A program made the translations under genes and the position numbers. The notes under the pieces were generated by a model that worked only from the letters and a program-made list of their open reading frames with translations, did not search any database and was not told the DNA's origin. Positions 16,901 to 54,600 of a stretch of DNA of 64,000 nt are shown piece by piece. Within the stretch, counting starts at the first letter, position 1, and every line of letters begins with the position of its first letter. This stretch comes from Chondrosia reniformis (Eukaryota > Porifera > Demospongiae > Chondrillida > Chondrillidae). Where the stretch lies: the NCBI GenBank assembly GCA_947172415.1, contig OX359190.1:1798001-1862000 (forward strand). Reading direction: 5' to 3'.

Positions 16901-19900
16901 CACTTTTCTTGAAGTTGCGTAGCTCTGGACTTAAATATTCACTTGGGCCATACTGGACCGATAGCACTTTGGATATTTCCTTGTACAGAAAGGTTGCATC
17001 TGTACAGATCCACTGCTCTTTGTACATGCTCAGGTCAAAGTACACATAGAACCCAAGGCAATGAAACAGCTTCAGCAGTGCAAGAAGCTGTCCATCAGCA
17101 TCTACAGGCTGGATGAATTGGCATCGGATGCAGAACTCTTTCAGTTCTGTGAGCTTCCACATCTTATTTTCCACACTAGATGTGATTAGTTGCAGGCAGA
17201 ACCAAATTTTAGGAACTTTCAGTGTCAACTGGAACTCGGCATCTGAAAGTAGAGAGCGAAGGGCATTTACAGCTTTGTGAGTGTGATCCTTCAGGTTGCT
17301 GTCTCCCTGTAGCTGACTGTCAACAAGAAAGCAGCTACCAGCACCTTTGTAGGTAACCTCTTTTGGGGGAAAAACCCTGTTGCCATCATAAGGCTTGTTG
17401 TCCATTTCCTCTAGAACCTTCTTGTTGTGGTCCAGTAGAGCTCTCTTAGCTTCGGGATCGTCTGGAAGAAGGGAAAGGTGAGTGCCAACAAGGAAAATGC
17501 GAAGTTGGGGCTCATTAGGCATGTCAAATTCTTCCAACTGACGCTTGCTCTTCATTGACATTGTGTAGGCAGCTGTAATGGATTCCTTCATCGATTCCCA
17601 GGTTGAACGGCTGTTGGCTCTGATCTCTTCAGTGGCTCCATCTTGACAGTAAGCATTGATGCACGGATCTGTCAACCTCTCTGAAGCTTTAAAGACGTGC
17701 AAGAAGTTGCAGGGAAAGTCCAGTAGGAGTGGAATGACATTCTGAAAGGAGGGCTGACCTCCTGTGTCCAGGAGGTAAATGAACGTACACTGCTTCTCAT
17801 CTAATTGTGCCTCAGTGGATAGGTTGTGCTTCTGCAAGAAGCTCACCCTGGCTTGCTCCAGCAATTCTAAAGGGTCCTTACGTTGAAGTGAATTGTCACT
17901 GGGAGGGTCTTGGGTGCTAGGAGGCTGAAGTGGATTGGCAACTGACTGATCAGTTGTTTCATTGGTTGATCTTCTTTGAAACAGTGTCGACACTCCTTTC
18001 CAGAACCTTGTGAGAAGGCCTTCTGGTTGTTGGGTCATGGTTAGATCTTCACTTGGTTCAGATGGACTTTCAACTTCAGTGGCTGTTGCTTCTTGTTCTG
18101 AAGTAGCTATAATTGGAAAGCTTTCCTTTACTTTCATATCTGCAAATGAAATGAGCTGTCCCATCTCTTCATCATCCATCACTTTCCAAAGAGACCCAGC
18201 AGCAACACCTTTTGTGAAGCTACACTCCTCTACCTCCCCCTGGCCTACCTCTAGCCTCTGATCTGTTGTGCCTACTCCATCCCTAGCAATGGTGGCCACT
18301 TCAGGAGCTTCCAGCACTCCAGTGCTAGTTTTGTCTTCTCTTACTGTGTTGTGGAGCAGGTAGTGCTTCAGTGAGGTTTTACCAACACGCGAGCCTCCAG
18401 TGAGGATTGCACGGCTAATGTTCACTTCAACTGAACCATGTTCTTCTATGGCTTCTTGATACCACTTAGGAACCTGTACAATGTACATATACAAACAATA
18501 AAAATCTCATTTTGTTTTGACATGCATATAATTTAGGATGACAACATGAAGGATGTATATAGCAAGTTGTTTGAACTCTAACATATAAAACAGTGACTAG
18601 CACATCTGGAAAGAGTAGAACAAGACAATGATCATATCACGGATATGAATAGCCATACAAAAGTGGCATACTGAAATTTAGTAAATTAATTTATTTGGGT
18701 GTATAATATTAGCTGAAGTATGATGCACCCAAATATAGAAGTGCATGCCTAGTATAAGAGTGTCTTGACCTTTGAAATAAATTGGTAGAATTTCACATTA
18801 GATACGTATAAATGTGTGTTTGCAAAGAACAGTTGCTCAAACACTCTCTCAAGTTTAAGTGTTAACCTGTTTAGAACACACTCGTACGAGAACTCAAAGT
18901 AATACAAGTCTTGTTAACATTGACATGCACTTCGTGTACACTGAGCACACAAGTTAAGTGACTCTAACAAAGGAAATAAAACCTTCTAGTGTATCTATTT
19001 GAAGGAGAAAGTGCACACAAAGCGTGCAACGAATGTTAACAAGACTTGTAATACTTTTATGTAATGTTTTGTAATTAAATACGTTTACTAACCTCAACTG
19101 CAATATGGTACTGTACAGCTCTTGTCTGATATCCTCCCCCAAAGGTAAGAAACGTAGTTCTGTTAAGGGAAGCCGTACAGGTGTTGCCATAAGATTTTAC
19201 TTCACTAATTTGTGTCCACTTCTTCTCGAAAATGAAGACTCCATCTGGACCTACTAGGACTGGTAGGGTGCTGTATTGTAAAAGTGAACTGTCCGGTGGT
19301 GCATCTTCGAGCTCTTCCCAGTGATGTATATCATTAGTGATAAGTGAAGCCATAAAATTCTTCTTATTCATTCTCCAAAAATATCCCTCCAAGTAGTAGA
19401 TGTAAATATATTCACCACACAATGCCATGTGGTGCCGTGATAATGGTTGAGGAAGCTTAAGATTTGACTGTATCCACTTTCTATTCTTAATATCCAGGAA
19501 TTCAATTGTGTCTACTTCTTCTTCATCTTCTCCTACTCCTCCAGACACAATTACTAAGTCTTCAATTACAAGAACGCTTGGACTGGATCGGGCAGTGTGC
19601 ATTGGAGGATATAGCCCTAACCATTCTTCACCTGTCCATGTCAGTAGCTTGTTTGTAGGAGTGCCATGACTGTCTCTACCTCCTATCAGAGTTAACTGAT
19701 CTTTTACGATGGCTACTCCATTATTAACGTGAGAATGTGAAGGTAGCTTTGACCATTTATTGGTTTTAACATCGTAAATATGAACTATCTGCTCTCCACT
19801 GACAAATACTCTTTGATTGATGACAACAGCTTTGCCAAAACAGGTTCCATTAGGCATTTTTGGTATTTCAGTTGGTTTGAGGACGTGACCTCCTCCAGCT

Positions 19901-19923
19901 GTCAAGAGGTCACTTTGAAATAC
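10951..19923 (-). CDS. Gene B: Kelch-Roc-COR-(Roc-COR)-linker-CARD
   Basis: Second Kelch-ROCO gene. Exons are Kelch 19,923-19,093, Roc-COR B1 18,473-16,131, Roc-COR B2 14,485-12,113, linker 11,972-11,516 and CARD 11,291-10,951. All junctions are GT..AG; phases 0, 0, 0, 1 and stop add to 2,115 codons, so one protein with two GTPase-COR modules is possible. Alternatives are two separate genes (B2 without a Kelch exon) or mutually exclusive use of B1 and B2. I favour a single locus because no Kelch exon, linker or CARD lies between B1 and B2, and B1 keeps a good GTAAGT donor. The CARD (VDWKALLKEQWTYIKKN ... EVAEKLESISA-stop) is a different type from that of gene A. The upstream first exon was not found. 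Confidence 0.6.
11516..11972 (-). repeat. Linker exon of gene B, 13 x 9-residue repeat
   Basis: Coding minisatellite of 27-bp units. After TDEFEFDGDQFLVLKDQ come 13 units, mostly STDPRERDI in the middle and STDPRGRDI at the edges. The clustered Glu-for-Gly change suggests that internal units expanded recently. The exon is in phase with both neighbours. The opposite strand is also open because of the repeat, but that is a shadow. Confidence 0.9.
12113..14485 (-). other. Roc-COR exon B2
   Basis: A 791-codon exon with P-loop GGSCVGKTS, DTGGQ and VGTHLS, followed by COR. Its insert between P-loop and G3 differs from those of A, B1 and C and includes a short internal duplication (LFTSTLSLFTSTLS). 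It ends SNTSS at a GTAAGT donor. No Kelch exon lies directly upstream; the next exon to the right is Roc-COR B1. Confidence 0.85.
14486..16130. other. Spacer between Roc-COR exons B2 and B1
   Basis: This 1.65-kb AT-rich stretch shows no Kelch, linker or CARD exon. It carries intron-type words seen upstream of the other Roc exons (for example GATGCACCCAAA near 14,714 and 3,735). It is either an intron of gene B or the gap between two genes. Confidence 0.45.
16131..18473 (-). other. Roc-COR exon B1
   Basis: A 781-codon exon with P-loop GGSRVGKTS, DTGGQ and VGTHLS. It is closest to the exons of genes A and C in its N-terminal insert but diverges after COR (PAALPERKIDLPEP, HNCEGSSLHLL). It ends DSDTIS at a GTAAGT donor in phase 0. 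The next compatible acceptor on the strand is the phase-0 start of Roc-COR B2. Confidence 0.85.
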
Positions 19924-26224: not shown

Positions 26225-28434
26225 TTAAGCCGAGATTGACTCCAGCTTCTCTGCCACCTCTCTATGGACAGGAAATTCAGCAGAACTGTCTCTCAAGACA
26301 CTAATAAACTTTCTGAAAGTCTCAAATGTGCCACTGTCATAAATGAATTCCAGTACCAGTCTGTTAGCTTCTCCCTTTGAGGGGGTAGCCTTTACCTTGG
26401 ATGTGACTTCTTCACAGATGACACTGTTAGACCAAAGGTCATCATAAATCTTGTGAGCAATCATGTTCTTCTTGATGTATGTCCACTGTTCCTTCAGAAG
26501 AGCCTTCCAGTCTACTGCTGGTAGTGGAAATTGAACGGCTCCCTCACCAGTGGGAATGGACGAGTCTAATAAATATAGTAAAAATTGTAGCAATGATTCA
26601 AAATTAAAAAGGCTTGTATAGGCATAGAAACTCCCACATTCAGCACTAAAAAGGAACAACCCGTTCCCTAAGTCTATATACAGCATCCTCAAAAGTACCA
26701 ACAATACAAACCTACAGCAAGTACTAATACAGCCTTACATAGCATATTATGCATACATTTAGTGTTGTATACACTTACTTTCAGGATCTTTAAGTCCAGA
26801 GCTAGGATACCCTCTTGGTTCAGTAGAGATGTCACGCCCTCTTGGTTCAGTAGAGATGTCACGCCCTCTTGGTTCAGTAGAGATGTCATGCCCTCTTGGG
26901 TCAGTGGAGATGTCACGCCCTCTTGGGTCTGCAGAGATGTCACGCCCTCTTGGGTCAGTAGAGATGTCACGCCCTCTTGGGTAAGTAGAGATGTCACGCC
27001 CTCTTGGGTCTGTAGAGATGTCACGCCCTCTTGGGTCAGTAGAGATGTCATGCCCTCTTGGGTCTGTAGAGATGTCACGCCCTCTTGGGTCAGTAGAGAT
27101 GTCACACCCTCTTGGGTAAGTAGAGATGTCACGCCCTCTGGGATCAGTGAAGTTTGGGTTGGAGAAAAGCCCATTTGACAAAGATTGGTCTTTAAGGACT
27201 AGAAACTGGTCTCCATCAAATTCGAATGTACCAGTCAAACAAAGCTGCAAAGAGAAAAACAAAAGTACGTAGTTAGATGCAGTCATGTCAGTTATACAAG
27301 CAGTTATATTCAGCAGATAGTATTGTTAAACACTTAAAGTGTATTGGCTGAAATATGAATCGTGACTTACAGAACTGGTGTTGCTGTCTTGTTCCTTAGC
27401 AACCCAAACAGACTCTCTTGGAGTTAGTCCAGTCATCTTGTTCAGTCTGGTACACAGACCTGTTCTCGGGTTGTCACCTTCAAATCGCAGAAGATGCAAG
27501 CTGGAGGTCCTGCAATTCTGGTGATGGCAGATGACACCTACTTCTAAAGTAGCTTTCTCCTCAAGAAATTCTGCATCAAACACTCTTTTGCTCACGTAGC
27601 AAATGCGTTCTTCCATTTCCTCTCTGATTTGCCTGCAGAGTTCAGTCAAAGAGGGGGCAAGAGTTGAAAAATGCTTAGGAACCAGCAGTTGCAGTTGAAT
27701 GAGGTCCTCCTTTTGGGAAAGGACAATGTGGGCATTCTCTTGAGAGAAAATAAATTGAGTACTGTCAGATTGACTGGGACAGTACCTCCACTGGTTTCCA
27801 CCGATGTAGGCTCGGTTCACTTTCTTAACCTTATGAGCTTGTCTGCTACTAGCCATATCCACAGCCAGTCTGTGGAATAGACCAGTCGGTACACAGCTGT
27901 ACCTCTGATATTGGACAGAGTGGAATGAAAAAGTGAATCCCAAAGTGGCCACTGATTCAGTAGGCAAACTGATATCCCTTTCAGGAAGGACTGTGGGGAT
28001 GAAGAAGTGCATCTTTGTCTCCTCTACCACTTTGGCTGCAATACCAACATGTAGCAGGACCTCCAGGAGCCATCTTGTTGGGATGTCAGCATCAATGCCT
28101 AGCTGTTGAAACAAAGCTTCAGAAACAGCTTCAGGAATTACTCCTTTTTCTTTGAAGATGCGCAACTCTGGAGCCAAGGATTCATTCTCCAGACCATACT
28201 GGACTGATAGCACTTTGGACATTTCCTTGTACAGAAAGGTCGCATCTGTACAGATCCACTGCTCTTTGTACTCACTCAGGTCAAAGTACACATAGAACCC
28301 AAGGCAATGAAACAGCTTCAGCAGTGTAAGGAGCTGTCCATCAGCACCTACAGGCTGGATGTATTGGCCATCGGATGCAAAACTCTTTCAGTTCTGTGAG
28401 CTTCCATATCTTATTTTCCACACTAGATGTGATT
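26225..28434 (-). pseudogene. Copy D: truncated COR-linker-CARD gene
   Basis: 3' half of a fourth Kelch-ROCO copy. COR and post-COR sequence runs 28,434-27,371, the linker exon 27,244-26,779 and the CARD exon 26,565-26,225 (EVAEKLESISA-stop). Kelch and Roc are missing: similarity to the other Roc-COR exons stops abruptly at about 28,434. One extra base at about 28,366-28,370 shifts the frame of the COR start, although the frame is open from FYVYFDL (28,291) onward. Splice sites of the remaining exons are intact, so it might still be transcribed from another promoter. Confidence 0.75.
26779..27244 (-). repeat. Linker exon of copy D, 13 x 9-residue repeat
   Basis: The head LCLTGTFEFDGDQFLVLKDQ is followed by 13 units, mainly STDPRGRDI. 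It has its own variants (STYPRGRDI, SADPRGRDI and three STEPRGRDI-type units at the end) that are not found in gene B. Although both have 13 units, their variant order differs, so the two arrays have turned over independently. Confidence 0.9.
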
Positions 28435-29914: not shown

Positions 29915-30366
29915 CTATTTGAGTGATTTGGCCACTTCATTAAATCCACTCTTCTCCAGTGCTTCAACAAGGACAGAAACTGTAGCTTTATCTCCTTGTT
30001 CGTCATGCCATGACTCCAAGGCTGTGACAAAGGCTTCAGGTGGATCATTTGAATTAGCTTTTTCTACCTCTACAAAGATGTCCCTTCTCACTCCTAAACG
30101 TCTGCACACTGGTTTCCACTTGTTAACAGCTTCAGAATCAGCTACATCTTGAAGTTGGCAAATAGTCATTCTCTGTCGCAAGCTGTCCTCAGCTACAGAT
30201 ACATGTATATTATACATACCAAATGTAATACTGTACATTGGAAATTGAATGTGTGTGTCTAAAGATTGTGAGACTGTGATTTGCATGAATCTGCAAACTT
30301 AAAGTGAAGTAAATTGCATTCCTCCTTACCAACTGGTGTAACTGGCATTGGTAGGTTGGTGTCCAT
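29915..30366 (-). CDS. Small Death-domain protein
   Basis: Two exons: 30,366-30,330 (MDTNLPMPVTPV) and 30,192-29,915. They are joined in phase 1 and give about 104 residues. The second exon is a Death domain: CQLQDVADSEAVNKWKPVC, then RRLGVRRDIFVEVE, ALESWHDEQGDKATVSVLVEAL and a final helix to SLK-stop. The Trp and the W...g..aTv..L..aL pattern are typical of the family. The start has a strong context (GCCATGG). It lies only three bases after the TAA of gene C in the same exon, so the two frames share a transcript segment. It could be an independent adaptor gene, a downstream cistron, or a formerly fused C-terminal domain. Confidence 0.7.
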
Positions 30367-30369
30367 GGC

Positions 30370-33300
30370 TTATTTTGATTTGTCTGGTTCACAGGGACCT
30401 ATGAATATTACAAAATGGTGACACTGCTCAAAGAAGGATGACTATCCAGCCATCACATAAATCCTCCCCCTACGTACGCATACATATATGTATCTGTTTA
30501 AAACTCACTTGATTTTCTTGATCTCAAAGGCTGATCTCCCTAATGCAGTAAAATGATAAATAGAGAATAAATATAGGTACATAACAGCACACATGTGAGA
30601 TCAAAGTGATAATCAAACCACAAGTAATCACCGACAAAATTCAAGAAGAGGAAAAAAATGGAGAAGAAATGTGCTAAAATGTAAGGACATACTCATATTC
30701 TGAAGTGTAAGGACCTACCCATATTCTGAAGTGTAAGGACCTACCCATATTCTGAAGTGTAAGGACCTACCCATATTCTGAAGTGTAAGGACCTACCCAT
30801 ATTCTGAAGTATAAGGACCTACCCATATTCTGGTGTCCCCTTCCAGTCTGTCAGCCACTTCTTCATGTACCCCATAGTCTTTTGACGTTTGTTGGAGGAT
30901 CTTACAGAAAATTTCAAAATCTGAAAGTGTTTTACTTCTCAAGTGTTCCAAGAAGATTTCGTTTGCATCGTTCTTGGTTACAGCATGATTGATCCTCTCA
31001 TAAATGTCATCTGTAATTAGCTGTTTTCCATCCACTCCTTGCAAGAGTTGGTTGGCAATCTCTTTGACACAGAGATTCTCTAGCAGGTAGACCCTATGAT
31101 GGAGTTGTATAACCTTTCTCCATTCACAACTGGCATCTACATATGAATACACAAAGACATATAAATCATTATGCAATAAACTCAAAATGTTATGCAACAG
31201 CTGTGCTAGTGAATATGCACTCACCATTGCTATCTTTAAATTGCCTTTAAATTCTACTTACATACGTACATGCATGAATTGTATAGTTATGCATTGCAGG
31301 ACCTCAGGTAGAGAATAGGGTCAATGAACGCATTGAAGAATGCATGACCAAGATAAAGAACAAGAAAAAGACAAAGATTCCCAGGGCCAATGATGAAGGG
31401 TGGAATTCCTAGAAACAGCTGTCTGGCCCAGTGGAGCAGAAGAAGAAAGAGAAGACTCCTGTATCTTCATCCAAAGCATAGGCATAGCATGTAGGAAAAT
31501 GGTGTATTATATATTTCACATACGTATATACGTATATAGGATACCTTGCTGATGTCTTGTTAGAGCTTTAGCTCCTGAATCATCCTTGAAGGTTGAACCT
31601 ATATGCAACAGATGTAGATTTTAAGAGGAACTAATTGACAGATCAAACAAATTACAACTTACCTTTAATATTTGTAGAAAGATTACAATGAAAACAGAAA
31701 CTGTCACTAGATGTAACTCCTTGTAGAGACACATCTTCATAAGGTGGATCTTTAGAAATGGACCCATAATTTGGTACAAGAGTAAGAAATGGGGGATACA
31801 TATCCGCTTTAAAGTCATCTTTTAATTTCTTTTTATTTCCAATTGGATACACAATATCTTCCTTCTTAATCTGTATATATACACAATATAAGGCCAATCC
31901 ATGATACTAAATAAGCAAACGGAAACACAATCACATTCTAAAGGAAGACGTATACATTCAAAATTTTCAAAAGTATAAGTTTTGCATTCCTAATGTGAAT
32001 TTTGTATATCTTAGTTGGTGACCTCTTTAACTACGTACATAAGTATGTATAATAAGAGGGCTATACACACAATTCACCTTAAAGGACAGACTAAATTAGA
32101 AGCAAAATGATTTACGTATGTAGATTATATACAAATCCTTTAAGGTGGAAAATCTCAAGGTAAATGACCAGCGTATTCAAGGTGCCCTTCAAATGGAGAT
32201 CTCAGTGTATTAATTTTAAGGCAGGTCAACCTCAAATATTAATTTAATAAATTTATTATAGCAAAAATAAAGCAAAGCATCTTTAGATGCTCTGCAAGTC
32301 GAAAGATGCTCCAACTACATGATAAGCTTGAGGCAGTTAGAAGAATCCTTATTCTATTAAGGGAATTAATATTAGTTAAATTTGGATGATAATACATTTA
32401 TTTACTCCTTTTAAGTTACGTATATACGTACACCATACAGCAATAGTCATTGAAATTCCTTAAAACACATCCATTTTATACTATTACATGTAGTTGTATA
32501 TATAATCCTGTATACTACTAACTTGTAAACGTCCAGTAATTACACCATGACAACCAGGCTCCAGCTTACACTTCAATATTTCTCCCTCTTCCAAAAATTG
32601 GAAGCAACAAGGCTGTCCAACTTTGCTAAAAACTTTCCAATATTTTTTTAATATCTAGAGGATGCACATAAATCAAGTAAAACCAGAAAACATCTCTAAA
32701 AAAGAAAACACAAACCTGGATCCAAACATTATGATTGTAAGTAGCAGCTATTCGTGTGGTTATACTAGTATCCTTTGACTTCCAAGCAGAAGCCAGATAC
32801 TCCAAAGGATCATTTAAACGTGAAGCTTTAGTAAAGAGAGTGCAGTGTCCTGTGATGAGGAAATCCCTGCCATTACCTCCCCCTTCATAGTCCTCAAATG
32901 TGAACTCTTTATTCACAGGAGAGTGAGGTGCCATCATCATCTTCACTCTGTCAGCGTCTGCACTCCAGTGAGGAAGGTGGAGGGTGATGGGACTCTTGAT
33001 GTCTTTACTGTTGTAGTGGATATACACCACAGGGCTGGCCAGTTTATAACCATCTGGTGCCACCAGAGGTCCATCTATTAAAATACCATATCTGATCTGC
33101 ACCTTCCCCTTCTCAGGAACAGCTCCCTCTGGTACCTCCAGATGAGTGATGTCACTCTCCACTGGTCTGTCCCCTTCCGGTTCCAAACTGAACCTTCCTC
33201 CAGTTTGGTCTACTTGAAGAGACTGTATCCTAAATGGGATCCAACACAGCTGGTCTAGTCGCTCTTCATGCTCTGTGAATTAGACAATGTAACAGAAGCA

Positions 33301-36300
33301 TGCAGTACTCATACATAAGAGGTTATTTAGGACACATACAGAGTAGAGATACGTAAATTGCACACATACGTACATACAGAATACGTACACACCTAATTCA
33401 TGAGGGGAGGAGTCACCAGGTTCTTTTGGATCCAGTGACTGAGAACCAGACACTAGGGAACTCTAACAAAGCAATTGATACGTAATATTTAGTAACTTCT
33501 AAATGACAATGTAGTTTTAACACTTTCTTACATTCCCTTAAAAGGTTGACAATAAACAATAGTTTACCCACAGGGGCAGTCTGTGTTTATAAACAAACAT
33601 TCTTTGACAATTCAGTCAATAGGTCATAGTATTGGTGATGCTTAGCTTTAGGAAAATTAGCAAGAAGCATCTTTAGAGAACAGTCAATTCAGCCAAGTAA
33701 TACACTTTTGAACATTCACTGTAGGAAGGTACATAACAGCAAGTGAGATCAAAGTGATAATCAAACCACAAGTAATCACCGACAAACATGAAGAGGAAAA
33801 ATATGTGTGCTAAAGTGTACCTCTGAAGTGTAAGGACCTACCATATGTAAGGACCTATACCATATTCTGAAGTGTAAGGACCTATACCATATTCTGAAGT
33901 GTAAGGACCTACCCATATTCTGAAGTGTAAGGACCTATACCATATTCTGAAGTGTAAGGACCTATACCATATTCTGAAGTGTAAGGACCTACCCATATTC
34001 TGAAGTGTAAGGACTTACCCATATTCTGAAGTGTAAGGACCTACCATATTCTGAAGTGTAAGGACCTACCCATATTCTGAAGTGTAAGGACTTACCCATA
34101 TTCTGAAGTGTAATGACCTACCCATATTCTGGTGTCCCCTTTCAGTCTGTCAGCCACTTCTTCATGTACTTCACAGCTGGCATCTACATATGAATACATG
34201 AATGCATATAAATCATTATGTAATAAACTGAAAATGTTACACAACAGCTGTGTTAGTGAATATGCACTTACCATCACACTCTCCTGAGTTGTCAGATGGT
34301 GTTGACTGTCTAACAACTTTAGGTCCTCCAGTACAGGTAGACTGGTCTTTATAGAGAAGGAACTTGTCTCCGTCAAATTCTACTTTACCAGCCACACTCA
34401 ACTATACAGAAGAAGATACAAAAATCAATAAATTACTTGTGTCCAAAGAATAACAATAGCATATTAAATAGAGTCAGTAGCAGTAAGATTAGAATGTAAA
34501 ATATACAGTCAATAATTGTTACACTTGTAATAAGGTCTAATTTGTTGAATACATAATATTATGAAACTTACATTGCTGTCCTGTTCCTTAGCAACCCAAA
34601 TTGAATCCAGCTTCTCTGCCACCTCTCTATGGACAGGAACTTCAGCAGAACTGTCTCTCAAGACACTAATGAACGTTTTGAAAGTCTCAAATGTGTCACT
34701 GTCATAAATGAATTCCAGTACCAGTCTGTTAGCTTCTACCTTTGAGGGGGTAGCCTTTATCTTGGATGTGACTTCTTCACAGATGACACTGTTAGACCAA
34801 AGGTCATCATAAATCTTGTGAGCATTCATGTTCTTCTTGATGTATGTCCACTGTTCCTTCAGAAGAGCCTTCCAGTCTACTGCTGGTAGTGGAAATTGGA
34901 TGGCTCCCTCACCAGTGGGAGAGGGTATGTCTAATAAATATAGTAAAATATGTAACAACAATTCAAAATTAAATGGCTTGTATAGGCATAGAAACTCCCA
35001 CATTCAGCACTAAAAAGGAACAGCCCGTTCCCTAAGTCTATATACAGCATCCTCAAAAGTACCAATCTACACTAACTGCCTTACATTTAGTGTACACTTA
35101 CGTTCAGGATCTCTAAATCCAGAGCTAGTAGAGATGTCACGCTCTCTGGGGTCAGTAGAGATGTCACGTCCTCTGGGGTCGGTAGAGATGTCATGCCCTC
35201 TGGGATCAGTAGAGATGTCACCCCCTCTTGGGTCAGTGGAGTTTGGGTTGGAGAAAAGCCCATTTGACAAAGATGGGTCTTCAAAGAATAGAAAATGATC
35301 ACCATCAAATTCAAATGTACCAGTCTCACAAAGCTGCAAAGAGAAAAACACAAGTAGTTAGATGCAGTCATGTCAGTTATACAAGCAGTTATTTACAGCA
35401 GATAACACATTTGGTTAGCATTGTTAAATACTTCTATATAGTAAAGTGTTTCTGCTGAAATATTAATTATGACTTACAGAACTGGTGTTGCTGTCGTGTT
35501 CCTTAGCAACCCAAACAGACTCTCTTGGAGTTAGGCCAGTCATCTTGTTCAGTCTGGTACACAGACCTGTTCTCTGGTTGTCACCTTCAAATTGCAGAAG
35601 ATGCAAGCTGGAGGTCCTGCAATTCTGGTGATGGCAGATGATACCTACTTCTAAAGTAGCTTTCTCCTCAAGAAACTCTGCACCAAACACTCTTTTGCTC
35701 ACGTTGCGAATGCGTTCTTCCATTTCCTCTCTGATGTGCCTGCAGAGTTCAGTCAAAGAGAGGCCGAGAGTTGAAAAATGCTTAGGAACCAGCAGTTGGA
35801 GTTGAATGAGGTCCTCCTTTTGGGAAAGGACAATGTGGGCATTCTCTTGGGAGAAAATAAATTGAATACTGTCAGATTGACTGGGACAGTACTTCCACTG
35901 CTTTCCTCTCAGCTGGATTGGGCTCACTACCTCCTCCTTGAGTGCTTGTCTGCCACTTGCAATATCCACAGCCAGTCTGTGGAATAGACCAGTTGGTATG
36001 CAGGTATACCTCTGATCTTGGACGGAATGGAACGAGAAAGTGAATCCCAAGGTGGCCACTGATTCAGTAGGCAGACTAATATTCCTTTCGGGAAGGACTG
36101 TGGGGATGAAGAAGTGCATCTTTGTCTCCTTTACCACTTTGGCTGCAATACCAACACGTACCAGGACCTCCAGGAGCCATCTTGTTGGGATGTCAGCATC
36201 AATGCCTAGCCGTTGAAACAAAACTTCAGAAACAGCTTCAGGAATTACTCCTTTTTCTTTGAAGATGCGTAGCTCTGGAGCCAAGGATTCATTTTCCGGA

Positions 36301-39258
36301 CTATATTGGACTGATAGCACTTTGGACATTTCCTTGTACAGAAAGGTTGCATCTGTACAAATCCACTGCTCTTTGTACTCACTCAGGTTAAAGTACACAT
36401 AGAACCCAAGGCAATGAAACAGCTTCAGCAGTGCAAGGAGCTGTCCATCAGCATCTACAGGCTGGATATATTGGTATCGGATGCAGAACTCTTTCAGTTC
36501 TGTGAGCTTCCACATCTTCTTTTCTACGCTAGATGTGATTCGTTGCAGGCAGAACCAAACTTTGGGGACTTTCAGTGTCAACTGGAAATTGGCATCTGAA
36601 AGTAGAGAGCGAAGGGCATTAATAGCTTTGTGAGTGTGATCCTTCAGGTTGCTGTCACCCTGTAGCTGACTGTCGACAAGAAAGTAGCTACTGGCACCTT
36701 TGTAGGTAATCTCTTTTGGGGGGAAAACCCTGTTGCCATCATAAGGCTTGTTGTTCATTTCCTCCAGGACCTTCCTGTTGTGGTCCAGTAGAGCTTTCTC
36801 AGCTTCAGGATCTTCAGGAAGAAGGGAAAGGTGAGTGCCAACAAGGAAAATGCGAAGTTGGGGCTCATTAGGCATATCAAATTCTTCCAACTGACGCTTG
36901 CTCTTCATTGACATTGTGTAGGCAGCTGTAATGGACTCCTTCATCAATTCCCAGGTTGAACGGCTGTTGGCTCTCTTCTCTTCAGTGGCTCCATCTCGAC
37001 AGTAAGCATTGATGTATGGATCTGTCAACCTCTCTGAAGCTTTGAAAACATGTACAAATGTACAAGGAAAATCTAGTAGAAGTGGAATGACATTCTGAAA
37101 GGAGGGCTGACCTCCTGTGTCCAGGAGGTAAATGAACGTACACTGCTTCTCATCTAATTGTGCCTCAGTGGATAGTTTGTGCTTCTGCAAGAAGCTCACC
37201 CTGGCTTGCTTCAGCAATTCTAAAGGGTCCTTACGTTGAAGTGAATTGTCACTGGGAGGGTCTTGGGTGCTAGGAGGCTGAAGTGGATTGGCAACTGACT
37301 GCTCAGTTGTTTCATTTGCTGGTCTTCTTTGAAACAGTGGTGTCACTCCTTTCCAGAACCTTGTGAGAAGGCCTTCTGGTTGTTGGGTCACGGTTTGATC
37401 TACACTTGATTCGGATGGACTTCCAATTTCAGTGGCTGTTGCTTCAGAAGCAGCTATAATTGGAAAGCTTTCCTTTACTTTCATATCTGCCAATGAAATG
37501 AGCTGTCCCATCTCATCATCATCCATCACTTTCCAAAGAGATCCAGCAGCAACACCTTTTGTGAAGCTACACTCCTCTACCTCCCCCTGGCCTACCTCCA
37601 GCCTCTGATCTGTTGTGCCTACTCCGTCCCCAGCAGTGGTGACCACTTCAGGAGCTTCCAGCACTCCAGTGCTAGTTTTGTCTTCTCTTGCTGTGTTGTG
37701 GAGCAGGTAGTGCTTCAGCGAGGTTTTACCAACACGCGAGCCTCCAGTAAGGATTGCATGGCTAATGTTCACTTCAACTGAACCATGTCCTTCTATGGCT
37801 TCTTCATACCATTTAGGAACCTATACAATGTACATACAAAACAATAAAAATCTCATTTTGTTTTGACATGCATATAATTTAGGATGACAACATAAAGAAT
37901 GTATATAGCAAGTTGTTTGTACTCTGACATATAAAACAGTGACTAGCACATCAGGAAAGAGTAGAACAAGACAGTGATCATGTCACGGATATGGATAGCC
38001 ATACAAAAGTGTCATACTGAAATTTAGGAAATTAATTTATTTGGGTGTATAATATTAGCTGAAGTATGATGCACCCAAATATAGAAGTGCATGCCTAGTA
38101 TAAGAGTGTCTTGACCTTTGAAATAAATTGGTAGAATTTCATGCACATTAGATACGTATAAATGAGTGTTTGCAAAGAACAGTTGCTCAAACACTCTCTC
38201 AAGTTTAAGTGTTAACCTGTTTAGAACACACTCGTACGAGAACTCAAAGTAACATTGACATGCACTTCGTGTACACTGAGCACACAAGTTAAGTGACTCT
38301 AACAAAGGAAATAAAACCTTCTAGTGTTTCTATTTGAAGGAGAAAGTGCACACAAAGCGTGCAACGAATGTTAACAAGACTTGAAATACTTTTATGTAAT
38401 GTTTTGTAATTAAATACGTTTACTAACCTCAACTGCAATATGGTACTGTACAGCTCTTGTCTGATATCCTCCCCCAAAGGTAAGAAACGTAGTTCTGTTA
38501 AGGGAAGCCGTACAGGTGTTGCCATAAGATTTTACTTCACTAATTTGTGTCCACTTCTTCTCGAAAATGAAGACTCCATCTGGACCTACTAGGACTGGTA
38601 GGGTGCTGTATTGTAAAAGTGAACTGTCCGGTGGTGCATCTTCGAGCTCTTCCCAGTGATGTATATCATTAGTGGTAAGTGAAGCCATAAAATGTTTCTC
38701 AATCATTCTCCAAAAATATCCCTCCAAGTAGTAGATGTAAATATATTCACCACACAATGCCATGTGGTGCCGTGATAATGGTTGAGGAAGCTTAAGATTT
38801 GACTGTATCCACTTTCTATTCTTAATATCCAGGAATTCAATTGTGTCTACTTCTTCTTCATCTTCTCCTACTCCTCCAGACACAATTACTAAGTCTTCAA
38901 TTACAAGAACGCTTGGACTGGATCGGGCAGTGTGCATTGGAGGATATAGCTCTGACCATTCTTCACCTGTCCATGTCAGTAGCTTGTTTGTAGGAGTGCC
39001 ATGACTGTCTCTACCTCCTATCAGAGTTAACTGATCTTTTACGATGGCTACTCCATTATTAACGTGAGAATGTGAAGGTAGCTTTGACCATTTATTGGTT
39101 TTAACATCGTAAATATGAACTATCTGCTCTCCACTGACAAATACTCTTTGATTGATGACAACAGCTTTGCCAAAACAGGTTCCATTAGGCATTTTTGGTA
39201 TTTCAGTTGGTTTGAGGACGTGACCTCCTCCAGCTGTCAAGAGGTCACTTTGAAATAC
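30370..39258 (-). CDS. Gene C: Kelch-Roc-COR-linker-CARD-CARD(del)-ZU5-CARD
   Basis: Longest member of the family. Exons: 39,258-38,428 Kelch; 37,820-35,478 Roc-COR; 35,333-35,102 linker (4 repeats); 34,930-34,572 CARD1; 34,401-34,272 second linker (LSVAGKVEFDGDKFLLYKDQ); 34,183-34,122 deleted CARD2; 33,462-33,393; 33,272-32,716 ZU5; 32,654-32,523; 31,870-31,663; 31,598-31,545; 31,136-30,823 CARD3; 30,539-30,509; 30,398-30,370, ending DKSK-stop. Every junction is GT..AG and every phase matches, giving 1,784 codons including the stop. CARD1 does not stop as in genes B and D but runs into IWVAKEQDSN and a donor. The Kelch exon starts in phase 0, so a first exon is still missing. A split into two genes after CARD1 remains possible. 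Confidence 0.6.
30692..30835 (-). repeat. 26-bp minisatellite made of splice-donor copies, array 1
   Basis: About five full 26-bp units lie immediately downstream of the CARD3 exon in transcription order. Each unit repeats the exon end and its donor (AATATGG followed by GTAGGTCC) and a pyrimidine-AG stretch (CTTACACTTCAG). Each unit thus contains both a 3' and a 5' splice-like site. Confidence 0.8.
31290..31510 (-). repeat. Dispersed repeat R1 copy in gene C
   Basis: Reverse-complement copy of a repeat whose core reads AGAGCTTTGGATGAAGATAC and CCACTGGGCCAGACAGCTG. It lies in the intron before CARD3. Other copies are at 48,484, 55,408, 58,878, 61,975 and 62,935. Confidence 0.6.
32265..32370. 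repeat. Partial foldback element
   Basis: Carries the arm words GATGCTCT and GAAAGATG and the tail GGCAGTTAGAAGAATCCTTATTCTATT. That tail also ends the foldback elements at 49,300 and 60,120. Intronic. Confidence 0.5.
33826..34135 (-). repeat. 26-28-bp splice-donor minisatellite, array 2
   Basis: The same unit as array 1, about 11 copies, following the deleted CARD2 exon. Some units are two bases longer (CCTATAC instead of CCTAC), which removes or alters the donor. The preceding flank (GAGATCAAAGTGATAATC) is also shared with array 1 and with 53,995 in a FYCO1 intron, so the array seems to have been copied together with its surroundings. Confidence 0.8.
34122..34183 (-). other. CARD2 exon with in-frame internal deletion
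   Basis: Compared with the CARD3 exon (31,136-30,823), this exon keeps the first five residues (DASCE) and the last sixteen (VHEEVADRLKGDTRIW). It lacks the 84 codons between them, exactly 252 bases. Both splice sites and phases are kept. The death fold itself is gone, leaving only its last helix. Confidence 0.7.
35102..35333 (-). repeat. Linker exon of gene C, 4 x 9-residue repeat
   Basis: The head LCETGTFEFDGDHFLFFEDP is followed by four units (STDPRGGDI, STDPRGHDI, STDPRGRDI, STDPRERDI). It ends RDPE at a GTAAGT donor, phase 1. Confidence 0.85.
35478..37820 (-). other. Roc-COR exon of gene C
   Basis: A 781-codon exon with P-loop GGSRVGKTS, DTGGQ, VGTHLS and COR. It starts VPKWYEEAIEGHG right after a TAG that belongs to the acceptor, so the first internal Met is not the true start. 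It is most similar to gene A over its length (shared EEVVSPIQLRGKQWKYC block), so the C-terminal halves of A and C group together and differ from B1 and B2. Confidence 0.85.
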
Positions 39259-45587: not shown

Positions 45588-47409
45588 TTATTTTGCTACT
45601 TTGGTATCTTCAGTGGTATCTTTAGTGGTATCTTTAGTGGTATCTTTAGTGGTATCTTTAGTGGTATCTTTAGTGGTATCTTTATCAAACAGATCATCAT
45701 TACTGAGAGCATCCAGTTCTGTAGCAAATAATCAGCAAAGAGAGATGTTATATCCACTTGATAAATAAGTGTACATAGTCACAGCATACATACATACCTA
45801 TGTAGTTAATACAGATCAGCCTGGCCGATTTGGTAGATCATACAGTCATAACTTCATAAGTTTTGTTCAGTTAATGAACGTTGCATGTGACAATTGTAGT
45901 AGTGGCAGAGCACAAGTGAAATAACTATACCACTTCAATTGCCCTTGCAGTTATGTGATAGTTTACACACATTTTAGTTTACTTGTGTACACCAAACGAT
46001 CATTCATTGTATGTGTGGAAGTTTTGTGATTGATACAAAAAACTGTTACCTTCTATCTTTCTTATATAAAAGAATCTTTACCATATCTACTCTAGATCTC
46101 TTACCTGCTTCCAAGTCGTCCTCATCCACGTCTTCCGGTAGCCCATAGGATCTCCCCAGCACCTCCTGAACCCCATTAACCTCCTCCAGCATGTCTGATA
46201 GCTCATCCTGTACATCCTGTGAGGGGCAGGGTCAAGGGGACATTATATGGTATACACAACAAGTCAGAATGTTCCAATTACCGATAACATCTGTGACGGG
46301 TAATTGAATCATTTACATAAAAAGAATTAATCATCTTCCATAGGTGTGAAGGTCATTTTTGGGCATATGTTTGAACAGTATAGGAAGACACTTTGAATTC
46401 ACTGAGTTTAGTATCTTCTTGATCTGTTATATTTCCAAGTTGTTTTTGTTATATGCCACATATATACAATTATATACATGTAGCTATCAAGGTATTTATA
46501 AAACATATATTACAAACTAGCAATTGGATCGTCAAAATCATCAAGTAAGGTACTACATGCATAGATATATATACACTCAGTCTATGGTAAAGGCAGTATG
46601 AATAACCTCAATCTTTCCAGTGTCTGCTTTCTTGTATTCTTTCTTCATTTCCTTAACCCCAATCTTCATTGCATCAACCTAAAGGAAGAGTTAGTAAAAG
46701 TTTATAAGTGAATCAGATGATAAAGTCGATAAAGTTCATGCACTCATTTTATCATTATATATGACATGTTTAGCTAGGACAGGCTCAATATGGTCTTGTT
46801 TACTAGTTGCTTACAACACTACTCACTTTAATATATAATTACCTATTCCAAACTCACAAAATATATGTAGCTATTGTGTTGCATGGAGGTAACATGCTCA
46901 TATACCGTAGGCTCTGTGTCTTTAAGCTGCTGAGTAACAAAGCTGGCCTGCTCTATATTGAAGGACTGATTTCGTAAACCTTCCAATTGTGATTCGTACA
47001 TTTTCTTCTGCTTCAGAACACTTAGTGCTTTCTGCTTGACCATATTCTTAGATGGACCATCCCTCATCTTCTTCATCTGGTCCCCGTACTTCTTCAACTC
47101 TAGATCTAACTTTGCAATCTTCTTTTCTATTGATTCTCCTCTAGAATCAACCTACAAACGTATATACACTATCAACAATTATAATCAAAGTCATAATCCA
47201 CAGATTAATATAGATAATCAAGAGACCATCCAATAGATAGATATAAAAGAAAACTTGAAGATTTGCATATTATACAGACAGTGGTTTCTCGATCGTCGTG
47301 TCTGCCTGTCTCCAGGTGCTTGCAAATCTGTATGTCTCACGTTGGAAATGGCATCAGTAAGATTAGGCTGAGGTTTCTTCTGTCTTCCGCCGCCAAAGAG
47401 CCTGTTCAT
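45588..47409 (-). CDS. CHMP5: CHMP5 copy 1 with DTTK-repeat C-terminus
   Basis: Exons 47,409-47,341, 47,151-46,906, 46,678-46,607, 46,216-46,105 and 45,718-45,588 join in phase and are open. Exons 1-4 encode a normal CHMP5 core with a few changes ([11 protein letters not shown]). Exon 5 begins [13 protein letters not shown] and then runs into five DTTK units plus [10 protein letters not shown] and a stop, made by a 12-bp microsatellite. The LIP5-binding and C-terminal segments and the last exon are missing. The donor of exon 3 is weak (GTTATT). It could be a functional variant or a decaying duplicate. It lies head to head with NDUFA4. Confidence 0.7.
45604..45686. repeat. 12-bp microsatellite inside CHMP5 copy 1
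   Basis: About six and a half copies of GGTATCTTTAGT (plus strand). Read on the minus strand they give DTTK repeats in the last exon of CHMP5 copy 1. Confidence 0.9.
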
Positions 47410-50062: not shown

Positions 50063-50796
50063 AAGCCCTGTATCGTCTTTGCTTGCCATGCCGATAAGCG
50101 ATACTGCCTGTTTCTATCCTTCTTGAGGACGAGTGTGCGAATTCTGTTTGCAGAACGGGTCTACTTTTGCCTACCAAAGTTGAGCTTGCACAATATATGT
50201 GGTGTGCCAGATTTGGCCTGTGATGTGAACAAACTATATTATATATATTATTTATATTTATTGTCATTTTTTAGTGCTACATTGGACTTTTGTAATGTCC
50301 TAGCACCTGTTGGTGTGGTGCACTCTAATCATGATATTGATTGATTGATTGATATACTTTTATTGCGTAATAGCGGCAGAGTCTATATAGTCTGGCGTGC
50401 TTTCCCCCACCTCCTGCCAGCCGCCGATAATTGCGCGGGGCAAAAAAGTAGGGTCCAGCAGAAAATGTAAATACCACACCTCGCGGATAAGCAGGCGTAC
50501 ATACAAATCACGTTCTATGGGACGTTGTTTCGGCGGTCCGACGATGGTTTCAGCTGAAGCGTCTTGTGATTTGTGCCTAAAGGACGCCCTCAAAATTACG
50601 GAAAGAGTAAGAATATACTCCCCAGTAGGCGCCCGTTTACAGATGTGAAATCGCCATGACCCAATCGGTAGCCTATATAGCTGTAAGCTGATTGGTCGAG
50701 ATGAGGTGTGGCATTTACATTTCCTTAGACCCTGCTTTATCAACGATATCGATACAAAGCATTTACTACACTAGCCACATACGGCGGAGAACAGTT
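50063..50796. other. Upstream region of the methyltransferase gene
   Basis: No second gene is supported. There is a short ATTG repeat at 50,336-50,352. The frame upstream of the chosen start is open to an ATG at 50,692, but the added residues do not resemble the methyltransferase family. Confidence 0.4.
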
Positions 50797-51573
50797 ATGA
50801 ATAGTAAATTAGCTTCGGAATATCTCAGAGAATGCTATGAACGTAGCAACAATGAAATAAGTAAGCAAAAGAACGCGAGAATGCGCTTACTATTCGATCT
50901 GTACCAAAAGTATAGTAAAGATTGGGATATATCAAAGGCTAGCCTGTTGGAGATTGGAGGAGGTCCTTCATTATTAAACTCCATTGTTGCTGCTCCATAT
51001 TTTAGTAAAATTGTATTTTCAGAGTATGATTCAGGAATGAGGGAAAAGGTAACTGAATGGAAAGAAAAGCACTCGGACATGTTTGACTGGTCGCCCTACT
51101 TCAGCTTCGTGTACGGCGATCTCATGGGGATGAATCCAGCAGATGTTGTAAGGCAACAGGAGGCACTGAGAGGAAAACTTGCTCATGTAATTCATGGGAA
51201 TTACTTGGAGGACGGCGTTATTGACAGTGCGTATGTACCAGAAGAGAAATTTCAAATGGTAGTGGCTATTTATTGTCTGGCTATCGATCACGATATCGGT
51301 GACAACTTGACGATGAGACTGAAACGAATATCTTCCTTATTGAAAGAAAATGGGTTTATTCTCGCTACAATTTGTGGAGAAGGGAGTTTTTATAAACTTT
51401 TGCCGACTTCAAAGAAAACAAAAGTATTTAATTTAACAAAAGATGATATTAAGAATGATTTCGAAACTGCTGGCTTTGATATAAGAGAACATCAAATTTT
51501 TCCAGAAGCAGTTTCCTCAAGGAATAATGTTCAGTTTGGCAATTGTGTGCTAGCTTGTAAACTCGGGATATAG
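50797..51573 (+). CDS. NNMT/PNMT/TEMT-family N-methyltransferase
   Basis: Single-exon, 258-residue cytosolic SAM-dependent methyltransferase of the family that holds nicotinamide, phenylethanolamine and thioether methyltransferases. It starts MNSKLASEYLRECYER. The SAM-binding motif I is LLEIGGGPSLLNSI at about 50-63, followed by VFSEYDSGMREKVTEW. The family signature FDWSPYFSFVYGDLMG is at about 98-113, with VVAIYCLAIDH and the C-terminal NVQFGNCVLACKLG. The substrate cannot be told from sequence. A polyadenylation hexamer AATAAA is at about 51,631. Its 3' end converges on the last exon of FYCO1 with only about 80 bases between the two stop codons. Lack of introns beside intron-rich neighbours suggests retroposition or an ancestrally intronless gene. 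Confidence 0.88.
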   Translation: MNSKLASEYLRECYERSNNEISKQKNARMRLLFDLYQKYSKDWDISKASLLEIGGGPSLLNSIVAAPYFSKIVFSEYDSGMREKVTEWKEKHSDMFDWSPYFSFVYGDLMGMNPADVVRQQEALRGKLAHVIHGNYLEDGVIDSAYVPEEKFQMVVAIYCLAIDHDIGDNLTMRLKRISSLLKENGFILATICGEGSFYKLLPTSKKTKVFNLTKDDIKNDFETAGFDIREHQIFPEAVSSRNNVQFGNCVLACKLGI

Positions 51574-51652: not shown

Positions 51653-54600
51653 TCAGTGACCGAGTTTAGTTATTACTTTATACTGCAAACTACATCCTGC
51701 AAATCTGTCAAGAAAAGAAGGAAAAAGATTAAAGGATGGATAGATCCGTGCATGGATGGATGAATGGGTGGGTGGATGGATTGATGGATGAACGGGTGGA
51801 TGGATGGATTGATGGATGAATGGGTGGGTGGATGGATGGATGGATGGGTGGCTGGATGAATGAATGGGTGGCTGGATGGATGGATGGGTGGATGGATGGA
51901 TGGATGGGTGGATGGGTTAATGTATGGATGGGTGGGTGGATGTATGGGTAGATGGGTGGCTGGGTGGCTGAATGTATTAAAGGATGGATAGATCCGTGCA
52001 TGGATGAATTGGTGAGTGGATGGATTGATGGATGAATGGGTGGATGGATGGATGGATTGATGGATGAATGGGTGGGTGGATGGATGGATGAATGGGTGGA
52101 TGGATGGATTGATGGATGAATGGGTTGGTGGGTGGATGGATTGATGGATGAATGGGTGGGTGGATGGATTGATGGATGGATGGGTGAATGTATGGATGGA
52201 TGGGTGAATGTATGGATGGGTGGGTGGATGTATGGGTGGATGGGTAGCTGGGTGGCTGAATGTAGTGATTCTTTCTTAATTTGGTTGGCAAAGATGACAA
52301 GTGCTAACTTGGAAAATCCATTATCAAACACTAAAACATATTGCCCCTCCTTCTGTGCCACAACTTTTCCAGTTAATTTGGTCTTATGTGAGGCACATCT
52401 TCGAGATGGTAATACCTGTTAATGAGAAACAAGGAGAGAAGAAAATTTGGTATAAAGATTGTATCCTCATCCAAAGTTTTACAGTTTTTTAATAAGCGAA
52501 AAGGCTAAAGGAAAACAGTATATAATACATATTACTTAACAGTGGCAGATCTAGGGGGGGATCCAGGGGTGCAAAGGAACCCCCTTTTGCCTGTAAGTTG
52601 GCTTTCATAAGTACAAGAGCAAGAATTTACAGGCTGAAATACTGTAGCAGAAATAATAAAACTTCAATTCAATTCAATAATCTATATTATTAAGACAGTT
52701 TATACGACCTATTCAAATGCGGCAGCGACTCACACCTCTACTGCTGTATGTATTATTCTCGCCATTATGCATTACATAATCAATAACACAATATAGACGT
52801 AAAATTATTATTTATCCAGAAATTTGGAACCACCCTTTCTAAAATCCTAGATCCGCCACTGTACTATCTGTATATTTTCTCAAATACATGTCAAGTGAAC
52901 ACCAGACATTTCTGTCACGGTAACCACATCATGTCACCAATATTTTAGATTCAAAACTAGCAATATGTCTGTACAAAAGAACTAAACTGCAAAATGCAGT
53001 GTGGATGTACTATGTATATAAAGATTGCTTAACTAGATTGAGTGCTCCTATCAACCTCAGAAAGTTATAAATTCAAAGAATGAACGAGAATTGGACTCAC
53101 TTCGGTGCGCTGGTCTGACTTGATGTAATACATGGCAAAGGCTAGTCCTTTTGGTTCAGATTGGAACTCCCACTCAATGATAGACCTAGCCTTATCTACC
53201 TGGACAGTCACCTCATGAGATTGACCTGCTCTGAGCGAGATAGAATCCACCTCAGTCTGTGTAGAGAGTGACAGAGACATGGATGATTAAACAGTAAATC
53301 CTTTAAAAAAACAGTTGTGGTTTGCTAATCACCACAATATTGCACATACGTACACACATGTATACAGGAGTAATCTCAAACCTGTAAATCTGTGGTATCA
53401 GCCCTTGTATGCACTAAAACAGTTGTGGTTTACTTATCACCACACACATATGCAAACCTGTAAATTTGTGGTTGCTGCCCCTTTAGACTGGATGGATTCA
53501 CTCCTCTCTCCACCATCACTCCTACTAGCCTCACCTTTGGTTTTGAGACTTTCCAGTTTCTCTTTCAGTTCGTCCATATTGAGTTGAGAATTTGAGATCC
53601 TGTCTCGCGGGTTGGGTAACAGATCTGTAAATCAAAAAGATTAAAAGCTTGATAAATATATGCCAATTTTGTTAAAAAAAATTGAAAATGAAAATTTTCT
53701 GTACATATATGTAAGTTGATAGTACAGAGATTCATTTTACATATAATTACATAATTCCTATATATGTTAAGTATTACTTTGGGGTCAAAGGTCAAATCTA
53801 CCCAATATGGAGTCACAATGAAGCAGCTATCAAGGACCAAGTGACACTATGTACCTTCTTTTGACCTAAATATGACAGCTTAAGGTAATATAGGATTCAG
53901 CCAATCATTTTCCAGCTCATGGTATTTCTAATAAGACGTGTACCATTAAGTTGAGTTGTGTACGTATATGGTATCGGTTATCCAGTTATGTGAGATCAAA
54001 GTGATAATCAAACCACAAGTAATCTCAGACAAATGTCAAGAAGAGGGAAAAATGCATAATTGGTGGGAAAATTCCACCCATGTAGGACAGCTAATTATGA
54101 TTACCAGTGTTCTGCTGCTATGCTACAATTGTCACAACATATGTACAGAAACGTTTCTAAATCACTGAACCACAAAAACCATTCACTAGGATCTCCTGGC
54201 AGTTTACATGATTAAACCAATGCCGCTACATAGATACATACCGTATTATTTCTAATATAAGCCCAGGGCTTGTAAATCAACTTTGTTGGGACAATTTCCA
54301 CGTAAACTATGTATAGAAAGCAGCATGCTTGATAAGATGAATACCATAAGTACTTTAGTAGTACGTGTGTTAGTGGGCTTATATTGGGGACTGGCTTCTA
54401 TTATTTCAATAACTCGTAAAGGTGGGTTTCTATTGGACCTGGGCTTATATTAGAGATAATACAGTATGTATATAGGTACACTGAAAGTCACTGCAGCACC
54501 TGTATCATTGTGTAGGGGATTGCTATCACTGACAGTCCCTTGATCACCACCTATCTTGTCCACAATGCAGATGGGATCTGGTGTCCCCTCGGAGAACCCT

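Follow-up and report, generated by a model that had tools for sequence, protein, structure and literature searches.

Sensor, nucleoside triphosphatase (NTPase) switch and CARD or Death output are combined in NLRs, which form a large family in sponges that includes the demosponge groups NLRC and NLRD; NACHT-Zu5 and a COR domain are named among demosponge NLR architectures (PMC12909245). Here we describe a gene of the demosponge Chondrosia reniformis that may follow the same plan on another NTPase. It lies on the minus strand of a 64,000-nucleotide stretch of contig C2 (C2:1798001-1862000; hereafter the window, whose positions we use) in a genome of 117,379,552 bases and 15 contigs, and its predicted product would join a Kelch propeller, a Roc-COR (ROCO) module, CARDs and a ZU5 domain. 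Unlike NLRs, this gene and its relatives have ROCO in place of NACHT and Kelch in place of LRR, with the outputs at the C-terminal end. We think it probable, short of confident, that the gene is one copy of a tandem, lineage-specific family in which Kelch, ROCO and death-fold domains are joined into NLR-like cytosolic sensors on a ROCO switch.

ROCO proteins with parts of this architecture have been described. In the early-branching animal Trichoplax, which has at least 17 ROCO genes, Roc-COR occurs with CARD and death domains, but the partners listed include LRR, TPR, AAA, SH3, MBT and TIR, and kelch and ZU5 are absent from the main text of that paper (PMC4104024). Diverse domains flank Roc-COR in Dictyostelium Roco proteins, Kelch being named among them, whereas in the group described LRRs precede Roc and a kinase follows COR, and CARD is absent from the main text (PMC6320773). 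DAPK1 resembles the window gene in placing a C-terminal Death domain behind Roc-COR and differs in its N-terminal kinase and ankyrin repeats; Kelch, CARD and ZU5 are not named for it (PMC6320773). Brown algae have an expanded family of LRR-ROCO proteins, proposed immune receptors whose sensor exons are shuffled in constant phase, but there the sensor is an LRR, a death-fold output is lacking and LRR exons are shuffled, not output cassettes (PMC11378527).

ROCO with CARD (in Trichoplax) and ROCO with Kelch are therefore already known separately. The first-pass annotation of the window had made its comparison with human ROCO proteins only, and so took in neither the CARD and death domains of Trichoplax ROCO proteins (PMC4104024) nor the naming of Kelch beside Roco (PMC6320773). 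No report of Kelch, Roc-COR and CARD in one protein was found in the literature searched, which lay mostly outside subscription papers, the forty animal ROCO combinations of PMC11378527 aside. Within that literature the combination, extended by ZU5 and Death, and the size of the family appear to be new.

Fourteen exons join in one frame from Kelch to a stop behind CARD3

Read on the minus strand from 39258 to 30370, 14 exons form one open frame of 5,352 nucleotides (nt), or 1,784 codons with the stop included. We rebuilt the chain independently of the first-pass annotation, checking splice sites and phases, and arrived at the same figures. Every internal acceptor is AG and every donor GT (the last exon has no donor), phases are consistent across all 14 exons, and introns range from 61 to 659 bases. 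Kelch and Roc-COR come first, then linker 1, CARD1, linker 2 and a CARD remnant; a ZU5 block made up of five exons comes next, and CARD3, an exon of 31 nt and the last exon, closed by TAA at 30370-30372, complete the series (Table 1). The annotation's "up to three CARDs" comes down to two intact ones, the third being a remnant of 62 nt. The chain goes beyond chance, as paralogues that are 72-92% identical in Roc-COR show the same splice sites, phases and order of domains. At least one further 5' exon is expected because the Kelch exon begins at a splice acceptor, and the TAG of that acceptor is an in-frame stop in three copies compared, which places the coding start further upstream.

Domain identities

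The Kelch exon matches Pfam PF24681 with an expectation value (E) of 9.4e-14, over the cutoff, as do Kelch_1 and Kelch_6, and in a search against PDB profiles it matches the Kelch domain of KLHL20 (E 7.2e-14). By these matches the predicted product is a Kelch-repeat protein. For the second exon, Pfam gives Roc at E 7.5e-4 and COR-A at E 0.013 in the window copy, both under the curated cutoffs; the two models are both matched in 12 of 12 aligned copies, with best values of E 6.8e-4 (Roc) and 1e-5 (COR-A). Alignment of the Roc-COR family with the COR of LRRK-like genes of the same genome by hhalign gave E 8.9e-5 at a probability of 59.6%. The P-loop GGxxVGKTS and the motif DTGG are invariant in the 12 copies, and Q follows DTGG in at least 90% of them. 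At the level of the exon chain and of family order, a putative sensor, a candidate NTPase and death-fold domains stand in one chain, with the identity of the NTPase given by sub-cutoff matches.

CARD1 scores 19.1 bits against Pfam CARD (E 0.0013; cutoff 23.9) and is 38% identical to a genomic CARD over the Pfam cutoff (C13:667447). CARD3 scores 23.3 bits as a raw frame against the same cutoff and 24.7 bits (E 2.4e-5) as an exon alone, and taken as an exon it is a predicted CARD over the curated cutoff. A further exon, at 29915-30192, matches Pfam Death at E 1.4e-11, over the cutoff.

ZU5 is over its Pfam cutoff (E 8.7e-5). In NLRP1, CARD8 and PIDD a ZU5 domain is followed by a death-fold domain, and the NTPase is a different one or is lacking. 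The three are cited as ZU5/FIIND proteins (PMC8195603). The window gene differs from them in that its FIIND match reaches only E 0.093 and Pfam UPA has no match in the exons of the ZU5 cassette. Where a self-cleavage motif might be expected, which we take to be HFS, the window ZU5 reads GHCTLFT. A PDB sequence search with the ZU5 block returned as its top match ZO-1 (E 0.083), presumably a ZU5 protein as well.

Pfam finds no NACHT in the exons scanned, and none of 101 scored NACHT matches of the genome falls inside the gene. By this measure the gene is not an NLR, but it may work like one.

A tandem family on contig C2

We searched the genome with the COR region. Here and in the other genome searches only the best candidates were scored, which makes the counts lower bounds. 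Of 173 candidates 150 were scored, and 141 were kept after nine partial or weak rows had been dropped. Among these at least 141 copies, 71 are close relatives, at least 72% identical (C2 has 70 of them and C13 one), 10 are intermediate (47-67%) and 60 are distant (36-43%). We compared them with 137 of 141 Kelch rows (three fragments and one row with stops dropped) and with a CARD list merged from two genome searches, short fragments removed. A same-strand Kelch exon lies within 9 kb upstream of 67 of the 71 close copies, and a same-strand CARD match within 6 kb downstream of all 71, 70 of which have a CARD exon of their own. The exception is window gene C, whose nearest CARD is that of the next copy, 5.6 kb away; in the other C2 copies the distance is at most 1.6 kb. 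As controls we took the 70 C2 copies with the CARD rows of C2, and found a same-strand CARD within 6 kb upstream in 2 of 70 and one on the opposite strand in 0 of 70. Kelch and CARD neighbours each occur in one of the 10 intermediate copies, and in none and nine, respectively, of the 60 distant ones. A separate upstream gene for Kelch was considered and ruled out by the 67 of 71 pairing and by the Kelch exon ending at a donor.

An earlier count gave the same arrangement. It used 58 Roc-COR exons (57 of 68 rows, 11 short pieces being dropped, and one extra), 105 of 141 Kelch rows and 26 of 46 ZU5 rows. Kelch lay within 12 kb upstream of 57 of the 58 (56 of them within 6 kb), with no opposite-strand Kelch within 8 kb; a same-strand Kelch within 6 kb downstream, seen in seven, is expected since the genes form a tandem array. 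A CARD3-like match followed within 4 kb in 55 of 58, the three exceptions being window genes, and never on the opposite strand. Close copies of CARD1 were confined to the window in the genome search.

Splice signals recur with this order. The Roc-COR exon has an AG before it in all 30 loci compared (four in the window; in L039 it is three codons further in), and a phase-0 GTAAGT donor follows it in 29, the exception being L057, where it was not found. Linker starts were located in 20 of 31 loci and follow AG in 21 of 21 cases; in seven loci linker and CARD stand in one uninterrupted frame. Locus L053 lacks ZU5; behind its Roc-COR come a linker of 130 nt, a CARD3 of 314 nt, the 31-nt exon as in the window gene, the last exon and then the beginning of Death. 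Because of this order, CARD3 and the terminal exons can be assigned to the Roc-COR gene independently of the window. We conclude that a single gene from Kelch through Roc-COR to CARD is well supported by the predicted structures.

The distant Roc-COR copies, at least 60 at 36-43% identity on C10, C6, C4, C13, C3, C8 and other contigs, are mostly one long open frame each; nine have a CARD downstream, and together they form a very large ROCO-like family.

A private stop ahead of a Death-domain exon

The TAA at 30370-30372 had been taken in the first-pass annotation as the natural end of the gene, and the Death exon downstream of it was overlooked. An exact match of 15 bases served to locate copies of the last exon. 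The codon at this position is not a stop in the nine other copies found; six of the nine belong to Death-bearing genes (six of the 12 other Death-bearing copies were read), and in all six the frame is open to a phase-1 donor. The join to the phase-1 Death acceptor was read in L053 and L067; in the other four, L070-L073, the sequence stops short of that acceptor. The window Death exon is itself intact, with 92% amino-acid identity to that of L067 and a ratio of non-synonymous to synonymous divergence (dN/dS) of 0.38. Death copies that are at least 85% identical number 13; all of them lie on C2, and one has an in-frame stop. A CARD3 copy lies 0.8-2.3 kb upstream of each of the 13 (the CARD rows used for proximity were those of C2 and C13), and a Roc-COR exon lies within 6 kb upstream of 11. 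The stop is absent from nine other copies, Death-bearing relatives read through and the Death exon is still present; for these reasons the stop is most likely a private truncation by which the window copy lost its last domain. An assembly error was judged unlikely from the consensus quality of 69.8 (PMC12181767), and a difference between haplotypes is possible.

Such a truncation could also mean that the window copy is a decaying pseudogene in an otherwise functional family. Besides the private TAA ahead of the Death exon, the middle CARD is reduced to 62 nt, one window neighbour retains only part of COR (27326-28387), and two window Roc-COR copies have one Kelch exon and one CARD in common. 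Against decay, the other exons are open and all splice sites intact, and Roc-COR compared with gene A has a dN/dS of 0.36. The stop-bearing exon, moreover, measures 69 nt and runs from phase 1 to phase 1, so that a transcript lacking it would continue into the Death exon with the frame kept. On balance we regard a decaying copy as unlikely, if a prospect to be taken seriously.

The ZU5 block as an optional cassette

The ZU5 block, introns included, is a unit of about 2.45 kb (31258-33704) that is 92.8% identical to L061 over 2,513 bp and 92.0% identical to L064 over 2,487 bp. Homology ends at 33704 in both loci and at 31258 in L064; the L061 match reaches the end of the locus. Among 46 rows the ZU5 exon has 26 full-length genomic copies at 82-100% identity. 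Four are on C2, each downstream of a same-strand Kelch exon, two with Roc-COR between and two without; the 22 on C7, C8, C10 and C11 have no listed same-strand Kelch or Roc-COR within 14 kb upstream. In a second gene, L067, the end of Roc-COR is likewise followed by CARD, ZU5, CARD3 and Death, and compared with it the window gene has a dN/dS of 0.38 in ZU5 and 0.63 in CARD3. This distribution suggests that ZU5 is an optional cassette in Kelch-ROCO genes. Among the copies away from Kelch, those of L060, L062, L063, L065 and L066 (C11, C8, C7 and C10) are 82-92% identical to the window exon. Five frames near the ZU5 copies of L069 and L063 had no significant Pfam match.

The locus might instead be divided into two adjoining genes, Kelch-Roc-COR-CARD1 ending at about 34.1-34.6 kb and ZU5-CARD3(-Death) with its own promoter from about 33.7 kb. 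The 22 of 26 full-length ZU5 copies that stand away from listed Kelch and Roc-COR exons indicate that ZU5 can exist without them, and the cassette has sharp homology borders. However, all four C2 copies sit downstream of a same-strand Kelch exon, phases match across the cassette, and L053 has this linker, CARD3 and the terminal exons straight after Roc-COR. L053, together with 11 of the 13 Death copies, which have a Roc-COR exon no more than 6 kb upstream, assigns the terminal exons to the Roc-COR gene, and in a split locus the first gene would lack them. We give a separate ZU5 gene little credence and rank it below the single-gene reading, in which the ZU5 part probably belongs to the same gene as Kelch, Roc-COR and CARD. 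The continuous gene from Kelch to CARD3 proposed in the first-pass annotation thus stands well supported for its first half and probable for its second.

In the window the cassette is flanked by the intact CARD3 exon and by a deleted CARD3 copy, and the donors of both CARDs lie at the start of a common 26-bp minisatellite. The phase changes from 0 to 1 across linker exons and across the ZU5 cassette and from 1 back to 0 across CARD exons, and Roc-COR both begins and ends in phase 0. Because phases 0-1 and 1-0 alternate, linker, ZU5 and CARD units can be added in frame. The units may have been spread by recombination at the 26-bp minisatellite. A different minisatellite, of 27 bp, lies within the coding linker 1 exon (26810-27148 and 35127-35241), and at 26.8-27.2 kb long frames are open over it on both strands.

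Selection and the case for an NLR-like sensor

Roc-COR is under purifying selection, with a median dN/dS of 0.356 over 28 copies (of 30 loci, two with in-frame stops were excluded; 369 of 378 pairs passed the dS filter). The one complete gene pair that is informative gives dN 0.117 and dN/dS 0.73 for Kelch, against dN 0.039 and dN/dS 0.36 for Roc-COR. Faster change in Kelch than in Roc-COR would be expected if a sensor diverged while its switch stayed conserved. At seven places on C6, C7 and C8 (paired by eye), relatives of CARD3 (E 6e-9 to 5e-6) are found at 0.6-2.0 kb from NACHT exons of the same strand. A sensor function of the NLR type would fit the propeller, the death-fold outputs, the tandem family and the presence of related CARDs beside NACHT.

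Kelch and Death also meet outside the ROCO genes. At C2:1871227-2182034 there is an array of 22 Kelch exons with no Roc-COR among the scored matches (the middle part was unread), and a Death match lies within 7 kb downstream of 11 of the 22. NACHT was tried as the partner of this array and rejected, as none of 101 scored NACHT matches (139 candidates) falls in C2:1.87-2.19 Mb. With this array, Kelch sensors with death-fold outputs may be a wider theme in the genome.

Alternatively, the Kelch propeller could put the family to a non-immune use, in cell adhesion, the cytoskeleton, allorecognition or protein turnover. Kelch propellers are common in ubiquitin-ligase adaptors. Dictyostelium ROCO proteins act in chemotaxis and cell division (PMC11378527). 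The recurrence of CARD downstream of close COR copies and of Death behind half of the neighbouring Roc-COR-free Kelch exons speaks against such roles, and we consider a non-immune family improbable.

Several observations weigh against an NLR-like ROCO sensor and against the gene structure on which it is built. Structures were read from genomic DNA, and a comparison of the sequence upstream of three Kelch copies did not reveal the first coding exon: about 160 bases are conserved there, up to a splice acceptor, with no start exon. Roc and COR-A are under the curated Pfam cutoffs in every C2-type copy with a score shown, and a PDB profile search with Roc-COR gave a P-loop match only to a small GTPase (E 0.099). 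AlphaFold models are of very low confidence, with a mean predicted local distance difference test (pLDDT) score of 33.7 for Roc-COR (12-row alignment) and 36.6 for Kelch (three-row alignment). The G4 motif of GTPases normally has a final Asp. In the G4 region of this family, (T)HLS, the H, L and S are invariant in 12 copies and T precedes them in at least 90%, with no final Asp, which makes the guanine specificity of Roc uncertain. The faster change of Kelch is a contrast from one informative pair, the close pair of genes C and E having too few changes (dN 0.009, dS 0.005), and cassette exons 3 and 4 have dN/dS values of about 1 (1.03 and 1.14) compared with L067, which give no sign of constraint. 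In two other sponges exposed to microbial patterns a Kelch-motif gene goes down as CARD- and Death-domain genes go up (PMC6208332); these genes may or may not belong to the Kelch-ROCO family.

Features of the window and neighbouring loci

Table 1. Positions in the window of the exons and repeats of the Kelch-ROCO gene.
Feature	Position	Strand	Remarks
Kelch exon	38428..39258	-	277 codons, donor phase 0, begins at splice acceptor
Roc-COR exon	35478..37820	-	781 codons, phase 0-0; P-loop GGSRVGKTS, DTGGQ
Linker 1 exon	35102..35333	-	phase 0 to 1; contains 27-bp coding minisatellite
CARD1 exon	34572..34930	-	phase 1 to 0
Linker 2 exon	34272..34401	-	130 nt, phase 0 to 1; equal length in paralogue L053
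CARD remnant exon	34122..34183	-	62 nt, phase 1 to 0; CARD3-type exon with internal deletion, both ends kept
ZU5 cassette exon 1	33393..33462	-	phase 0 to 1
ZU5 exon	32716..33272	-	phase 1 to 0; Pfam ZU5 over cutoff
ZU5 cassette exon 3	32523..32654	-	possible UPA region, no Pfam UPA match
ZU5 cassette exon 4	31663..31870	-	phase 0 to 1
ZU5 cassette exon 5	31545..31598	-	phase 1 to 1
CARD3 exon	30823..31136	-	314 nt, phase 1 to 0; equal length in L053
31-nt exon	30509..30539	-	phase 0 to 1
Last exon, coding part as first read	30370..30398	-	ends in TAA
Last exon up to GTAAGG donor of Death-bearing relatives	30330..30398	-	69 nt, phase 1 to 1
Death-domain exon	29915..30192	-	downstream of private stop, open, acceptor phase 1
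Whole ZU5 cassette with introns	31258..33704	-	homology to L061 and L064
26-bp minisatellite	30680..30832	n/a	starts over CARD3 splice donor
26-bp minisatellite, same unit	33846..34131	n/a	over CARD-remnant donor, other side of ZU5 cassette

The window holds further members of the family. A truncated neighbour on the minus strand (27326-28387 and 26225-26734) consists of part of COR and then a CARD1-type exon, with no intact Roc exon. Two consecutive Roc-COR copies on the same strand, genes B and C (at 12098-14506 and 16113-18506), have a common Kelch exon (19075-19923) and one CARD, and the pair is either a double-ROCO gene or copies that lost parts. At C2:1.337 Mb, a 611-codon open frame (L068:339-2171, plus strand) lies between Kelch and ZU5 exons; by eye it resembles a reverse transcriptase. 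Two ordinary neighbours in the window are an NNMT/PNMT/TEMT methyltransferase (50692-51573, plus strand; E 2.6e-21) and a Snf7-family exon (46843-47151, minus strand; E 4.7e-15), and long low-complexity frames rich in His-Pro-Ser-Ile repeats occupy 51673-52418 on the minus strand.

Discussion

The Kelch-ROCO product is predicted to be cytosolic, and an NLR-like sensor of this make could work as follows. The Kelch propeller would bind either a host protein under guard or a ligand of microbial or damage-related origin, and binding would allow a change in the nucleotide and dimer state of Roc-COR. Death-fold adaptors and caspases would then be recruited by the clustered CARD and Death domains, as they are by NLRs with NACHT, and ZU5 might be an added restraint or processing module. 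The window copy would end before Death unless the stop exon is skipped, and could then be a regulator, a variant with CARD outputs only, or a copy in decay.

A bolder reading, which we put forward tentatively and would not yet rely on, is that the sponge has a second innate-sensor repertoire beside its NLRs, with ROCO GTPases as the switch (Roc-COR copies number at least 141, including 71 close ones), in which in-frame output cassettes (CARD, ZU5 and Death) would be swapped by minisatellite-aided ectopic recombination behind a fast-changing Kelch sensor.

If the NLR-like reading is true, an early-branching animal would have evolved NLR-like sensing on another NTPase, from the GTPase class of LRRK2 and DAPK1. 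The debate on what ROCO proteins do in immunity would thereby gain an evolutionary setting, and the family would be a natural test of what can replace a NACHT domain. The phase rule would offer a simple account of how receptor outputs may be recombined with the frame intact.

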